Shown here: positions 53,491 to 58,066 of the stretch, one piece after another | Position numbering within the stretch: the first letter of the stretch is position 1 | How the letters are laid out: each line of letters starts with the position of its first letter | Source of the DNA: an uncultured Clostridia bacterium | GTDB lineage: Bacteria; Bacillota; Clostridia; Christensenellales; Borkfalkiaceae | DNA: 64,000 bases | Reading direction: 5' to 3' | Assembly (NCBI GenBank): GCA_944368155.1 | Contig: CALVWW010000002.1 | Location: 186,001-250,000, forward strand | Notes under the pieces: model-generated | The model's database searches: none | Told to the model about the DNA's origin: nothing | What the model saw: only the letters and a program-made list of their open reading frames with translations | Made by a program: the position numbers and the translations under genes

Positions 53491-54084
53491 TTAAACGGCG
53501 CGCGCAGTCTGCTCCTCGTCGTCGAAATGCGCCACCGCCCCCTTTGAAAGTATAGTATATTCGATAAAACGTGCGGCCTGCGCGCAGTTTACCACATATT
53601 TTACCGACTTTTTTACAATATTTTTGCCGTCGGAAATAAAAAATATCACCTTCCCGTAGTTGAGATTGCCCGAGTAAGCCCAGCCGTTCAACACAAACGC
53701 CAGTTTTGCACGCGAAGATTTTACCCCGACAATTTTATCGGCGGGAATATACTCGCGCTCTCCGCTCTTGTGGCAGAGCACGAAGAAACCGTCGTGCCGG
53801 TATGCAACGGTATACGGTGCGGCGGAGGCGCTTGTGCCGGCGTCGGAGAGGGCGCGGCGGAATATCAGCGCGCACATAACTGCGTCAAGCACGACAAGCA
53901 CAGCTGTGAGCGGCCAGAACAACGCGGGTATGCTGCGGAAAAGAAACACGTTGAAAGCCTGAACGAGCACGAGAATGAATATGCTTAAAAGAATCGCAAG
54001 AAAGACTGAACCGGTTATCGCCTCTCTTTTATTTATTATCACCCTGCCTGCAAGCGGTGTGAGCTTTACTCCGTCCTCTGTCAT
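53491..54084 (-). CDS. Membrane protein with PH-like C-terminal domain
   Basis: A 197-residue protein. Two transmembrane helices (about residues 25-45 and 53-72) follow a short polar N-terminus. The C-terminal ~110 residues form an alternating hydrophobic pattern (TVAYRHDGFFVLC...YIPADKIVGVKSS...VIFFISDGKNIVKKSVKYVVNCAQAARFI) like bacterial PH domains of small membrane proteins; this is a resemblance only. GGAGGAGGG fixes ATG 54084 against a much longer open frame. Function unknown. Confidence 0.7.
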   Translation of the reverse strand: MTEDGVKLTPLAGRVIINKREAITGSVFLAILLSIFILVLVQAFNVFLFRSIPALFWPLTAVLVVLDAVMCALIFRRALSDAGTSASAAPYTVAYRHDGFFVLCHKSGEREYIPADKIVGVKSSRAKLAFVLNGWAYSGNLNYGKVIFFISDGKNIVKKSVKYVVNCAQAARFIEYTILSKGAVAHFDDEEQTARAV

Positions 54085-54312
54085 TTTTCCCTCCTCCGCA
54101 ACGACGGCGCAAACTTTAAACAATTTGATTTTATCACCGAAAAAAAGATATGTCAAACGGTGAAATTTTTTAGTTATGCAGCTAAATGTTATTCCAAACT
54201 GACAGTTTTTCGGGCTTGACTTGCATTTCTGCACTAAATTTACCTGATTTTTTGCAAAAAAGGTGCAAATTACGCCTGCCCGCACTCTTTGCGGTAAAAT
54301 TGAATTATACAT

Positions 54313-54342
54313 AAAAAAATCGGGCGCCTGACCGCACCCGAT
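54313..54342 (-). terminator. Terminator of the STAS gene
   Basis: ATCGGGTGC and GCGCCCGAT pair (one G-U) and are followed by seven T on the minus strand. Confidence 0.85.
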
Positions 54343-54383
54343 AGCATTTCTATTCAGTTTTAATCAGCTGGCGGCCCTGCCGT

Positions 54384-54686
54384 TCATTCCGCCTTGCTTA
54401 TATCTATCAGGGTTGTTATACCCTGCTCGTCGAGCATATCATATAGTTGCTCACTGACATTTATCAGCGACATCTCCACTCCCGCAAGCTTCTTTTTTGT
54501 GGAGAGCAGCAGCATTACCCCCTCTTTGGTGAGACGCCTGACATTGCCGAAATCGATGACGAGTTTCTCAACGCCCGAAAGACTGCTGTTTAAAAACGCC
54601 TCGGTCTGCGGCACACATTCAGAGCACACGTCACCCTCCAGCCAGATTGTGAGAACGGAGCCTTCGCGTTCGCTTTTTATATCCAT
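54384..54686 (-). CDS. STAS-domain protein, anti-sigma-factor-antagonist-like
   Basis: A 100-residue STAS domain of the SpoIIAA/RsbV type, which in regulatory networks binds an anti-sigma kinase when unphosphorylated. LTIWLEGDVCSECVPQTEAFLNSSL and KLVIDFGNVRRLTKEGVMLLLSTKKKL outline the fold. The usual DSSG phosphorylation motif reads TKEG, with Glu where the phosphorylated Ser should be. GGAGG fixes ATG 54686. No kinase or sigma gene is adjacent. Confidence 0.85.
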   Translation of the reverse strand: MDIKSEREGSVLTIWLEGDVCSECVPQTEAFLNSSLSGVEKLVIDFGNVRRLTKEGVMLLLSTKKKLAGVEMSLINVSEQLYDMLDEQGITTLIDISKAE

Positions 54687-55010
54687 AAAACCTCCGCGGC
54701 AGAGGCGCCGCACAAAAGTTATTTTGTTCAGTAAATATAACCCACGGGGAGAATTTTGTCAAGCCTTTTACCGCCTGAAATGACATTGCAAAGGCTTAAA
54801 CAAGAAAGTTTATCACATAAAACGCACGGATTCAGCGGTTGCTGCGAAAGGTCTTTTTATGTTCCCTGCGCGTTTTTGCAAAAGATTGCGCACATAATTG
54901 CCTTTTGCAGAAAAAGCCGATACAACAAAGATTATATTTGCTGCAATGCCTGCATGTGCGCGCCAGCACACAACCCGCAAAAAAATTTTAAAAAATTTTT
55001 GATTTACCCC
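54687..55010. other. Gene-free stretch before the large RNA gene
   Basis: A plus-strand open frame of ~90 codons (54756-55037), rich in Cys, crosses this region but has no ribosome site and runs into the promoter of the RNA gene. No repeat or motif is recognised. Confidence 0.4.
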
Positions 55011-55038
55011 TTGACAAACACAAAATCAATGCTATAAT
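55011..55038 (+). promoter_or_regulatory. Strong promoter of the large noncoding RNA
   Basis: TTGACA (55011-55016), 16 bp, TATAAT (55033-55038): both boxes match the consensus. Transcription should start near 55045. An imperfect palindrome centred on AGCGCT (55067-55089) lies just inside the transcript and may be an operator or a 5' hairpin. Confidence 0.85.
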
Positions 55039-55115
55039 GAAGGTACAAAAAGATAAAAACGAACAAAAAATGTTAGCGCTAAACATTTTGACCAATAACT
55101 TTGAAGAGGTAAAAG

Positions 55116-55130
55116 ATGAAGTTCAAGTAG
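55116..55130 (+). CDS. Mini-ORF 1 (MKFK)
   Basis: Four codons and TAG, with GAGGT 5 nt before the ATG. A CCCC-GAAA-GGGG hairpin follows the stop immediately, as in translation-coupled leaders. Whether it is translated is unknown. Confidence 0.35.
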   Translation: MKFK

Positions 55131-55224
55131 CCCCGAAAGGGGGTCAATGTTATACCGTAGAGCGGGAAGCGCAACGCGTACCGCCCGTTGATATAAATTG
55201 AATAGCAAGAAGGAGGTAAAAACC

Positions 55225-55266
55225 ATGACTAAAAAAATTCTTTACTTCCGCAAAGCTACTACGTAA
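55225..55266 (+). CDS. Mini-ORF 2, 13 residues
   Basis: MTKKILYFRKATT, with AAGGAGGT 7 nt before the ATG, a near-ideal ribosome site. The peptide is basic and has no leader-peptide codon run. Confidence 0.5.
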   Translation: MTKKILYFRKATT

Positions 55267-55283
55267 TCAAGGAGGGTAGTCCA

Positions 55284-55316
55284 ATGAACAGTTTTACCCG
55301 GGAGACCTTATTCTGA
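55284..55316 (+). CDS. Mini-ORF 3, 10 residues
   Basis: MNSFTRETLF, with AAGGAGGG 7 nt before the ATG, 17 nt after the stop of mini-ORF 2. Two such strong sites in a row on tiny frames are unlikely by chance. Confidence 0.5.
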   Translation: MNSFTRETLF

Positions 55317-55773
55317 AAACACGGTTTTAATTTCGCAGGGATTTAAATCGGTTTTCGAAAATCGGGTCTGAAAGCCGGCCGACCGCACGGAACAGAAGAT
55401 GAGCGGAGCAATCCTGAACTAATTTTTAAATAATTCAAACGACCGCAACTTGATGAAAATATTCGTACAAAGAAATTTTTGAGTGACTGAAAGAAAGGAC
55501 TTTCAAATTCCGGATACGAAAATTCTGACAGACGGAAAGTTAAAAACAATTTGCCCGATATTTAAATTGAGGCGCGGAAGCCTGATTTATTAAAAATAAG
55601 ATTGAGGATAGTTCCACTCCCCTTTAAAGCCGCAAGGAAGAGCGATTTGAAGATGCGAGGGACGGAAACTAAGAGATTTAACCTGTATGGCGTTTGCCGC
55701 AAGTGCATATGATGGCACCGTAAACAGCGGAAGCGGGTCTCGAAATTAAAATTTAATAACTTTGTAAACAATA

Positions 55774-55802
55774 CCTGCACAGACGTAATTGTGCAGGTTT
55801 TT
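55774..55802 (+). terminator. Terminator of the large noncoding RNA
   Basis: CCTGCACA and TGTGCAGG with an 8-nt loop, followed by TTTTT. Confidence 0.9.
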
Positions 55803-55879
55803 GTGCCCGAGTTGCCGATTTACGGGAAGGCGCGCATTCCCCCACCGCTGAAATGTTTGCAAAATCGGTCGAGCAGAGG

Positions 55880-56295
55880 GTTACAAAAATATAAGAGCCG
55901 CGGGGCAGATGAAACTCCACGCACAAAACAAGCAGGTATTATTTAAAAATTACGGTGCACGGTAATTCATCTGAATGCAAATTAGCGGACCCTGCGCCTT
56001 TAGAAGACTTTTTTATTAAAGCTGCGGAGCATTCCGCAAACAACATGAACGGCGCGACGCCGTGCAACTCACCGGGACAGGAATTTTGTCGCAGACGGAA
56101 GCAAAAGAGCCTTAAAGCCGCAATGTTGCGGCAAAGAAAATCAGCGCAGTGCAGCACGGAAGCGTGCGGGATTTGGGCACCCGCAAAGCTGCATAAATTT
56201 AAGGTCTGCGGGGAGGATGAGGCTATTCCCTCTCCGCCTGCCGTTTGCGAATCATGTATCACCTGTGCGGAAATTCCGCACAGGTGATATTTTTT
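55880..56295 (+). ncRNA. Second hairpin-rich noncoding RNA candidate
   Basis: About 400 nt with a chain of local hairpins: ATTACG/GGTAAT (about 55952), TGCGGA-GCA-TTCCGCA (56022), ACGGCG-CGA-CGCCGT (56050), GCCGCAA-TG-TTGCGGC (56117), GCACG-GAAG-CGTGC (56154), TGCGGG/CCCGCA (56167-56187) and GCGGGGAG/CTCTCCGC (56206-56237), ending in a strong plus-strand terminator. No clear promoter was found; it may start weakly near 55880 or arise by read-through from the first RNA. A 110-codon open frame crosses it but lacks a ribosome site. Confidence 0.5.
56257..56295 (+). terminator. Terminator after the second RNA candidate
   Basis: TATCACCTGTGCGG and CCGCACAGGTGATA form a 14-bp stem followed by six T on the plus strand. 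Confidence 0.9.
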
Positions 56296-56402
56296 GTTTA
56301 CACGTTATTATATTTGCGCGGGATGCCCGTCTTTGCATAATATGCGCCGCGAAACGAGTAATCGTAATGCAGCCGAAGATTTACCGCGGCATTTTAACGC
56401 GG

Positions 56403-57269
56403 TCAACTCTGCTCTTCAAGCAAAGAGAGCACGTTTAAATCGGCGGAAATGCAAACCGATTGCGCGGCTATTTCTTCGGGTGCGTATGCCATGTCGAGAT
56501 TGATGCACGCATAGCGCGCATTTTTATTTTTATACGTCATCCGCCAGAAAGGATATTTTATAATCACAGGCGTATTCATGCCTACTCCGAGCTCGAGAAA
56601 GAGAATGCGGCCGCCTGAATTCCGGTCTAAAAATTTATTGTACCTGGCGCACGCCGCATGCCAGCCCTCGTCCTCTACAAACTTGTCGTCGGCGCGCAGA
56701 TTCAATGTCATTTCCCTGCCGCACACCGGACAACGGGGAATGAGCCGCGCGGGTATCTTCATATCCCTCTGCTCCCTCACCATTGCGCGCACGGCTGCCT
56801 CGTTATCATAAGTTTTATTGCAGCATGGCCCCGAACACTGAAAAAGGCCGTAGTCGCCCTGTGTATAAAACAGCCTGTCTTTATCGAACCCCGCTACCTG
56901 AAAGCGATGGTCTACGTTTGTGGTGATGACAAAATAATTTTTATGCTTCACAAGCCGCAAAAGGCTGTCGTAAACCCCGCCGGCAGGCTGGTCGTAACGG
57001 TTCACAAAGATATAGCGCGACCAGAACGCCCAGAACTCCTCGCGCGAAGGGAAGGGATAGAATCCGCCCGTATACATATCGTGAAAACCAAACTTTTTTT
57101 CGAAATCGGAAAAATATTTTTCGAACCTCGCTCCCGAATAGGTAAAGCCCGCGGCGGCAGAAAGTCCGGCACCCGCGCCTATCAATACCGCCTCGGCTCC
57201 ATTCAGCCAGCTTCCTAACTTTTTGAGTTTTCCGTAAATTTCATCCGCCTTAGGCAAGTTCATGTTCAT
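56403..57269 (-). CDS. Sirtuin of the macrodomain-linked class M (SirTM-like)
   Basis: A 288-residue Sir2-family protein. LIGAGAGLSAAAGFTYSG is the NAD loop, ITTNVDHRFQVAGFDKDRLFYTQGDYGLFQC carries the TNxD and catalytic region, and CSGPCCNK with CPVCGREM form the zinc ribbon; ELGVGMNTPVIIKYPFW follows. The FHDMYTGGFYPF block marks the SirTM class, which ADP-ribosylates protein rather than deacetylating it. ATG 57269, with GAGGA 5 nt upstream, lies within the end of the macrodomain gene, so the pair is co-translated. Confidence 0.88.
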   Translation of the reverse strand: MNMNLPKADEIYGKLKKLGSWLNGAEAVLIGAGAGLSAAAGFTYSGARFEKYFSDFEKKFGFHDMYTGGFYPFPSREEFWAFWSRYIFVNRYDQPAGGVYDSLLRLVKHKNYFVITTNVDHRFQVAGFDKDRLFYTQGDYGLFQCSGPCCNKTYDNEAAVRAMVREQRDMKIPARLIPRCPVCGREMTLNLRADDKFVEDEGWHAACARYNKFLDRNSGGRILFLELGVGMNTPVIIKYPFWRMTYKNKNARYACINLDMAYAPEEIAAQSVCISADLNVLSLLEEQS

Positions 57270-58005
57270 AAATATCCTCGTCCTCCGCTGTAAACACATT
57301 AAAGACGACCTTCAGGCTGTTGCAGCAGCTTTTAAGCCAGTCCTTTACCGTTGAAACTGCGAGGGCGCACGCCTCATCCTTCGGGTAGCCGTATACGCCC
57401 GTGGAAATACAGCAGAAAACAATCGAGCCTAGCCCCATCTCCTTTGCCTTGTTCAGGCACGAGAGATAGCAGTTTTTAAGGTCTGCTCTGTTTGTATCGG
57501 TGACCTTTCCATCTACCTGCGGCCCTACGGTGTGGAAAATATATCTGCACGGCAGATTGTAGCCTTTGGTGACGCGCACCCTGCCGTTCGGCTCAAGCGA
57601 GCCGTTCATCATTCCGTTGCAGTCCAGCCGCACCTGCACGCCGGCGGCCGAATGAATTGCATTATCTATGCAACCGTGAAGCGGGATAAAACAGCCGAGC
57701 AAAGCGCAGTTGCATGCATTGACAACGGCATCGGCGTTGAGACGGGTAATATCTCCCCGCCAGAGCGCAATATTGCCGTTGTATTTCAACTTGCCTGCAT
57801 CAACCACTCCCCGCTCGCGAGTGCGGGCTGAGAGATATTCATCCTGCAGTTGCAAAAAATCATCGCTCACGGGCTCGGGCGGCCGTACGTTGCACAGCGC
57901 GCGGAAATAACCGGGCTTTTGCCCGTCGGTAAGCGGGGGCGCTTTTTCGCCGCGCTCCGCACTCAGGATATCAATGAGTTTATCAAGTACAGTGCCGTAA
58001 TTCAT
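57250..58005 (-). CDS. Zinc-dependent macrodomain ADP-ribosylhydrolase
   Basis: A 251-residue protein. An N-terminal helical extension (about residues 1-75) precedes the macrodomain, which begins IALWRGDITRLNADAVVNACN; ALLGCFIPLHGCIDNAIHSAAG carries the Cys/His/Cys zinc ligands of the Zn-macro group, and CCISTGVYGYP is the ADP-ribose phosphate loop. Such enzymes remove ADP-ribose placed by SirTM. ATG 58005 is preferred to TTG 58017. It lies between the FMN/ferredoxin gene and the sirtuin gene on one strand. Confidence 0.9.
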   Translation of the reverse strand: MNYGTVLDKLIDILSAERGEKAPPLTDGQKPGYFRALCNVRPPEPVSDDFLQLQDEYLSARTRERGVVDAGKLKYNGNIALWRGDITRLNADAVVNACNCALLGCFIPLHGCIDNAIHSAAGVQVRLDCNGMMNGSLEPNGRVRVTKGYNLPCRYIFHTVGPQVDGKVTDTNRADLKNCYLSCLNKAKEMGLGSIVFCCISTGVYGYPKDEACALAVSTVKDWLKSCCNSLKVVFNVFTAEDEDIYEHELA

Positions 58006-58066
58006 AAAATTTTCCAACGCCTCAGATGGTACGAATCTGCTTCAGTCTATGTGCGCCGTCTGACTT

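Follow-up and report, generated by a model that had tools for sequence, protein, structure and literature searches.

An apparently undescribed structured RNA gene of uncultured Clostridia with a putative kissing loop and short Shine-Dalgarno-led frames

Homo-oligomers are seldom seen among natural RNAs, and conservation forms part of the argument for their relevance in the cell; OLE, GOLLD and ROOL are described as homo-oligomers whose kissing loops are symmetric, with palindromic covariation in two of these loops, and the logic of reading pairing between copies from loop palindromes is also applied to OLE and GOLLD (PMC12286853). The L9.3 palindrome of OLE changes from GGCC to GAUC or AGCU, and a monomeric state is reported for the raiA motif (PMC12286853). 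The raiA motif, or ModT RNA, is presented in a second paper as a structured RNA of Clostridia that acts in trans, a likeness to what is proposed below (PMC11706538).

The RNA described in this study resembles OLE, GOLLD and ROOL in being a large structured bacterial RNA of unknown function; it differs from them in that it has no Rfam match and most of its homologues are smaller, that it carries Shine-Dalgarno-led mini-ORFs, that its palindrome switches more often, and that it is absent from the viral and phage collections searched and restricted, as far as searched, to one family. It gives no covariance-model match to the raiA motif. With tmRNA it would share structure, a short internal frame and pseudoknots. 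In the HIV-1 dimerization initiation site, a hairpin loop of 7 to 9 nt holds a GC-rich palindrome of 6 nt, and a GC-rich 6-nt palindrome in a hairpin loop, with proposed kissing, is also present here. The two are unrelated; the present RNA is the product of a bacterial chromosomal gene, and its hexamer varies between species. Lambda bar minigenes are start-stop frames of a few codons, and comparably short frames are found here inside a structured, stand-alone RNA. By analogy, the proposed contact is like that of OLE or of the HIV-1 site, and the RNA is a member of neither. We regard it as categorically new because it unites a palindromic loop that switches with several start-stop frames and with a long-range stem that overlaps a frame; on a stricter view, it could be a new class within the known kind of large structured RNAs of unknown function.

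The gene lies in a 64,000-nt stretch of contig CALVWW010000002.1 from an uncultured Clostridia bacterium (the window). A first-pass annotation had placed an RNA gene at 55045 to 55802 on the plus strand and assigned it a promoter and a terminator of its own; these coordinates proved correct, and both the TTGACA-16-TATAAT promoter at 55011-55038 and an intrinsic terminator were found. The length of about 760 nt given there applies to the clade of the window and not to the family as a whole, in which 30 of 51 homologues measure about 300 to 455 nt, and the phrase "many local hairpins" does not do justice to a core with long-range and possibly pseudoknotted pairing, or to the self-complementary loop. 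The annotation lacked the palindromic loop, the long-range stem, the three Shine-Dalgarno-led mini-ORFs and the short homologue forms. The features of the region are as follows.

55011..55038, plus strand: sigma-70-type promoter, TTGACA-16-TATAAT with a TG-extended -10 box (TGCTATAAT), matching the consensus at 12/12 positions and also present in homologues
55067..55089, plus strand: 5' hairpin AAAATGTT-AGCGCTA-AACATTTT with the self-complementary loop hexamer AGCGCT (55075-55080), the proposed homodimer kissing loop
55106..55130, plus strand: Shine-Dalgarno sequence and mini-ORF1 (55116-55130), ATGAAGTTCAAGTAG, M-K-F-K-stop, found in its 4-codon form in homologues
55131..55142, plus strand: GAAA-tetraloop hairpin CCCC-GAAA-GGGG, directly 3' of the ORF1 stop
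55160..55187, plus strand: local hairpin GAGCGG...CCGCCC, seen by eye in homologues
55210..55266, plus strand: Shine-Dalgarno sequence (55210-55219) and ORF2 (55225-55266), MTKKILYFRKATT, about 14 codons, with a third-position excess
55269..55316, plus strand: Shine-Dalgarno sequence (55269-55279) and ORF3 (55284-55316), MNSFTRETLF, about 10 codons, recurring in homologues
55302..55307, plus strand: 5' strand of stem a (GAGACC), within the final codons of ORF3
55322..55324, plus strand: 5' strand of stem d, CGG
55325..55333, plus strand: 5' strand of stem c, TTTTAATTT; pairing here would cross stem a and make a pseudoknot
55340..55710, plus strand: arm enlarged in the window's clade; by length comparison, most other homologues have a short one
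55718..55720, plus strand: 3' strand of stem d, CCG, the partner of 55322..55324
55736..55741, plus strand: 3' strand of stem a, GGTCTC, just before the terminator
55743..55759, plus strand: A-rich 3' strand of stem c with a conserved tail, AAATTAAAATTTAATAA; a related tail is present in sister genera
55773..55803, plus strand: intrinsic terminator (55773-55798 plus T-run) from a sequence scan, with a GC hairpin in homologues

The promoter is the single perfect site within 53500-57000, a region with 12 promoter-like sites against 4.7 expected; terminator-like sites in the region are not enriched (6 versus 5.3 expected). Of 54 homologues, 50 have a GC hairpin after the 3' motif, although the motif finder itself required one. 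By eye, the terminator loop (55782-55787 in the window) contains GACGTA or something close to it in many homologues, despite a varying stem. As the annotation had also indicated, there is no plus-strand frame of usual length: the longest has 54 amino acids (55037-55201), its start lies inside the -10 box, and the frame is disrupted in homologues such as L002 and L008 (by eye). The predicted folding energy of the RNA is -203.1 kcal/mol (z score, -3.99), and none of 20 shuffles was equally stable.

The covariance models of Rfam 15, including those of ROOL, GOLLD, OLE, raiA and HEARO, gave no match at gathering score in the window or in 20 homologue loci, in agreement with the first assignment to no known class; 11 weak matches in the window, at E values up to 10, were all far under the gathering scores. 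Three described RNA types were considered and rejected. Neither the tmRNA nor the 6S RNA model matched in the window, and separate copies exist elsewhere, tmRNA over the Rfam cutoff in 34 of 41 same-genus genomes and 6S RNA in 36 of the 41, that of the window included. A CsrB-like sponge RNA is disfavored by the finding of CsrA in 0/41 genomes (control genomes were positive in 3/14). The window's own assembly (G000) has no tmRNA over the cutoff, possibly an assembly gap, as 34/41 genus genomes carry one. A phage or plasmid origin was likewise rejected: the RNA was unmatched in collections of viral contigs, phages and plasmids (one query each). A limited look at titles in the open-licence literature turned up nothing describing such an RNA.

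Homologues and covarying pairs, the evidence named in the first-pass annotation, were both found in relatives. BLASTN located relatives in 26 of 61 genomes, all of the window's genus, and a pattern that includes the GAAA hairpin yielded 47 stretches from GTDB genomes (labeled Clostridia, Clostridiales, Eubacteriales and Christensenella, with five from Candidatus Coproplasma). A covariance model of the 3' region (R1) matched 71 of 93 same-genus genomes, with one match apiece, and a model of the 5' region (R2) matched 79 of the 93, which is also the union of the two. Beyond the genus, R1 found nothing credible among the 396 sampled genomes of the order, a negative that is a matter of sensitivity, because R2 did find diverged relatives elsewhere in the family; the match of the 3' model at G209/L118 was spurious by eye. 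With R2, matches were obtained in 192 of 398 family genomes and 4 of 18 genera, 113 of these genomes belonging to three genera other than that of the window and many of the latter matches having E values between 1e-4 and 1e-2. From the better-scoring of the 113 genomes, 20 sister-genus loci were taken (13 from genus g27, 6 from g28 and 1 from g30); the promoter, leader and mini-ORFs could be seen by eye in all 20, and the 3' tail in 16/20 within the stretch fetched.

Size varies widely across the family. Measured from the -10 box to the 3' motif, with the terminator not counted, 30 of 51 homologues span 301 to 454 nt, those with repeated ORF units 528 to 694 nt and the long forms, including the window's clade, 637 to 737 nt, the window itself having 720 nt. 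R1 and alignment A2 were built from 36 of 53 homologues, with the long forms left out, and the 3' ends of L008, L037, L039 and L074 were placed by hand. Comparison across genomes has shown 55045-55802 to be a real, conserved and apparently undescribed gene for a structured bacterial RNA.

The leader is marked by a self-complementary loop. Seventy loops were extracted under a counting rule fixed beforehand, and one (L038) was dropped as a false promoter; 68 of the remaining 69 same-genus leaders have a 7-nt loop with a perfectly self-complementary hexamer. The last leader, L101, has GCUGGC, which is self-complementary via G-U pairs and one transition away from GCTAGC. Against the 68 observed, column shuffles of the 70 loops contained 8.2 palindromes on average and never more than 19, and when each loop type was counted once, 14 of 16 were palindromic (shuffled mean, 1.3; maximum, 6). 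Seven distinct leaders missed by the script (L024=L091, L042=L084, L061=L119, L083, L122, L126 and L131), which are not counted within the 69, are all palindromic by eye; the loop has 9 nt in L042, L061 and L131, and that of L024, GCGCGCG, can be read as GCGCGC or CGCGCG. An earlier extraction gave 61 perfect palindromes in 63 leaders, and a freer hairpin rule gave 64 of 73, the other nine being L101 with its G-U pairs, the false promoters L015, L017 and L033, and five leaders in which another hairpin was picked.

There are ten types of perfect hexamer, plus one or two more by eye, each type with at least four G/C. Parsimony on one quick tree of the RNA itself, computed without the hairpin, required 21 hexamer changes for 11 types (floor, 10), with 28 of the 66 inner branches of that tree under 80% support. 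The arms of the hairpin covary as well (n=70), being ATGTT/AACAT in 44 leaders, GTGTT/AACAC in 8, TTGTT/AACAA in 2 and TTAGT/ACTAA in 2. An inverted repeat about 30 nt past the -10 box, mostly with ATGTT/AACAT arms, is also what a DNA operator for a repressor in the initially transcribed region would look like. We consider that explanation improbable, given the ten or more hexamers and 21 inferred switches, arms that vary together, the G/C content of every hexamer type and, in the 7-nt loops, a hexamer axis that lies half a nucleotide off the arm axis, unlike a single DNA dyad. Neighboring loop bases are unable to pair within one chain; the pattern therefore argues for pairing between two copies, and a homodimer kissing loop in the window's genus is probable, the comparative evidence for it being strong though indirect. 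By the same criterion, 0/20 sister-genus leaders have a self-complementary loop, and several of these loci instead show, by eye, a longer stem around an A-rich loop; dimerization thus cannot be the core function of the whole family. With the palindrome switching within one genus and the sister genera providing a natural negative comparison, the RNA makes for an unusually clear case in evolutionary terms.

The term "noncoding" used in the first-pass annotation is incomplete, as two or three Shine-Dalgarno-led mini-ORFs recur and ORF2 has a codon-position signal. ORF1, with four codons ending in UAG, is present in 49 of 69 same-genus leaders and missing or changed in 20/69, a frequency biased upward because loci (the 47-stretch search and all A3 rows) were chosen by a pattern with the ORF1 stop and GAAA hairpin; tandem copies occur in L033, L047 and L070. 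ORF2 and ORF3 were both seen in 48 of 49 rows, the ORF3 of the exception, L035, being found under L097. Across homologues, ORF2 has 10 to 20 codons and ORF3 has 5 to 11. From the ORF2 stop to the ORF3 start there are 6 nt in 51 of 63 rows, an overlap (-4) in 3 and 14 to 18 nt in 9 (17 nt in the window); these 63 rows were found by requiring ORF2 and ORF3 and are no measure of how often the two exist. The Shine-Dalgarno sequence of ORF3 overlaps the 5' arm of the hairpin GGGTA/TACCC (55274-55299), which is paired in 74.6% of cells. Five frames tried in the middle arm, on both strands, were rejected as long coding frames, since most of 11 long-form homologues differ there in length by numbers not divisible by three.

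Differences at third positions of ORF2 exceed the null both for the whole frame (75 versus 59.4; P=0.002) and without its last four codons (55 versus 40.3; 0/1,000), and there is no such excess in the +1 and +2 frames of ORF2. For ORF2, the excess of synonymous codons falls short of significance (P=0.385 whole; P=0.088 trimmed), and ORF3 gave no codon-level signal in the same test. Translation of the mini-ORFs is plausible from these comparisons; so is weak selection on ORF2 at most, with ORF1 and ORF3 selected for translation rather than for a peptide, if they are translated at all. In the sister genera, the first frame has 2 to 5 codons in 17 of 20 loci (MN, MH, MHR, MNR and the like; two by eye) and 8 to 11 in the other three, and ORF3 contains MIGAE in 6/20. 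Several g28 loci (L167, L180, L181 and L182) have additional Shine-Dalgarno-led frames, one with a GGAGGG that could pair with CCTTCC after the start, and in most of the g27 loci L166, L168 to L172, L174, L176 and L177, the ORF2 start lies in a likely hairpin, CATATCG-(Shine-Dalgarno)-CGATATG (both by eye).

The molecule could be a miniature polycistronic messenger that makes the ORF2 and ORF3 peptides, with a structure that merely controls translation. Recurrent Shine-Dalgarno sequences, starts and stops, the third-position excess, the presence of ORF2 two or three times with similar peptides in L007, L055, L062, L067 and L074, and an ORF3 that begins MY in several sister-genus loci too would all fit. 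We nonetheless judge this unlikely: ORF3 lacks codon-level selection and the synonymous excess of ORF2 is not significant, an ORF1 of four codons and a sister-genus first frame of two to five are too short for a typical product, and palindrome switching and stem a are constraints at the RNA level. Somewhat lower still do we rate a decoy for ribosomes or initiation, in which a plentiful RNA would occupy 30S subunits through several strong Shine-Dalgarno/AUG sites or trap peptidyl-tRNA through the minigenes; several short frames per RNA, multiplied in some lineages and reminiscent of the bar minigenes, agree with such a role, which leaves stem a and the palindromic loop unexplained.

Stem a, in which the end of ORF3 takes part in a covarying long-range pairing, is well supported by the alignments. 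In the 36 short-form homologues, 95.8% of cells are paired and double changes occur in 6/6 pairs; for the whole structure, the covariation is 0.212, compared with 0.130 in shuffled alignments (0/500) and at most 0.098 in slid ones. RNAalifold on 12 long forms also found stem a, although covariation within that clade was low (double changes in 7 of 57 pairs overall). In the sister genera, a stem of at least five pairs with other letters stands at the place of stem a in 13 of 15 loci. When stem a partners were swapped between loci, mean scores fell from 15.7 to 11.4 in the genus and from 16.6 to 13.5 in the sister genera, and own pairs lay above the 90th percentile of swapped pairs in 18 of 53 and 7 of 15 loci, respectively, an effect that is only modest because relatives share letters.

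The other helices vary in their support. Stem d is paired in 96% of cells, with two of its three pairs never varying. Stem c is paired in only 65 to 71% of cells, with weak support confined to a clade; a pseudoknot between it and stem a is possible. The GAAA hairpin is paired in 100% of cells with double changes in 2/4 pairs, in rows chosen by a pattern that contains it. For the 5' structure, two of five measures were not above shuffles (double-change pairs, 5 versus 4.3; pair types, 10 versus 10.2), and the outer leader stem (helix 1), paired in 68.6% of cells, is not claimed. The extra arm of the window's clade keeps no frame across homologues.

We see about an even chance that these loci form a new RNA family whose members are structured, stand-alone and strongly promoted, probably also translated, and dimeric, ribosome gated and trans-acting. 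Two copies would join via the 6-bp kissing loop, as in the HIV dimerization initiation site, and ribosomes would load on the mini-ORFs, with termination at ORF2 near the Shine-Dalgarno sequence of ORF3 favoring coupled translation of the latter. Since stem a takes its 5' strand from the end of ORF3, ribosomes translating that frame would hold the 3' core open, and the core would close when ribosomes are scarce or stalled; the dimeric RNA may then act in trans, reporting or buffering the state of translation. More tentatively, and with clearly less confidence than in that explanation, we propose an RNA-based sensor or buffer of translation capacity, in which a kissing-loop dimer has a pseudoknotted core opened and closed by minigene translation and lineages swap palindromes while staying self-compatible. 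If confirmed, the RNA would be of an unusual kind, with folding that is possibly dependent on ribosomes; with structure and start-stop frames in one molecule, ribosome gating of the folding of a stand-alone RNA becomes testable.

Leader-peptide-like ORFs ahead of a terminator also bring to mind a cis-acting leader, a riboswitch or attenuator of a downstream gene. The surroundings make this very improbable, and it comes last after the peptide messenger, the ribosome decoy and the DNA operator, in that order. Among 48 contexts, no same-strand downstream gene is widely recurrent (an ABC-type ATPase, for example, occurs in 2), the largest same-strand downstream group having five members in a mixed cluster of seven, and the next likely gene in the window, at 56403-57299, is on the minus strand. 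Upstream neighbors in the 48 contexts include a Kef-type antiporter cluster (19 contexts, divergent), nitroreductase-like genes (4) and STAS-like genes (3), all on the opposite strand, and a YfbR-like protein is encoded downstream on the opposite strand in 8 of the 48; these four names are our assignments from the sequences. Other neighbors were left unclassified, and some of the frames picked shadow real genes.

In the window, the upstream gene is divergent and presumably encodes a STAS-like protein, and the convergent downstream gene encodes what we take to be a SIR2-like protein. Between the RNA region and the latter, a 16-pair inverted repeat followed by a T-run (56256-56290) matches the opposite strand at 97% and looks like a bidirectional terminator. 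At 56403-58017 on the minus strand, the SIR2-like protein is encoded next to what is presumably a macrodomain-like protein, a pairing known from SirTM operons.
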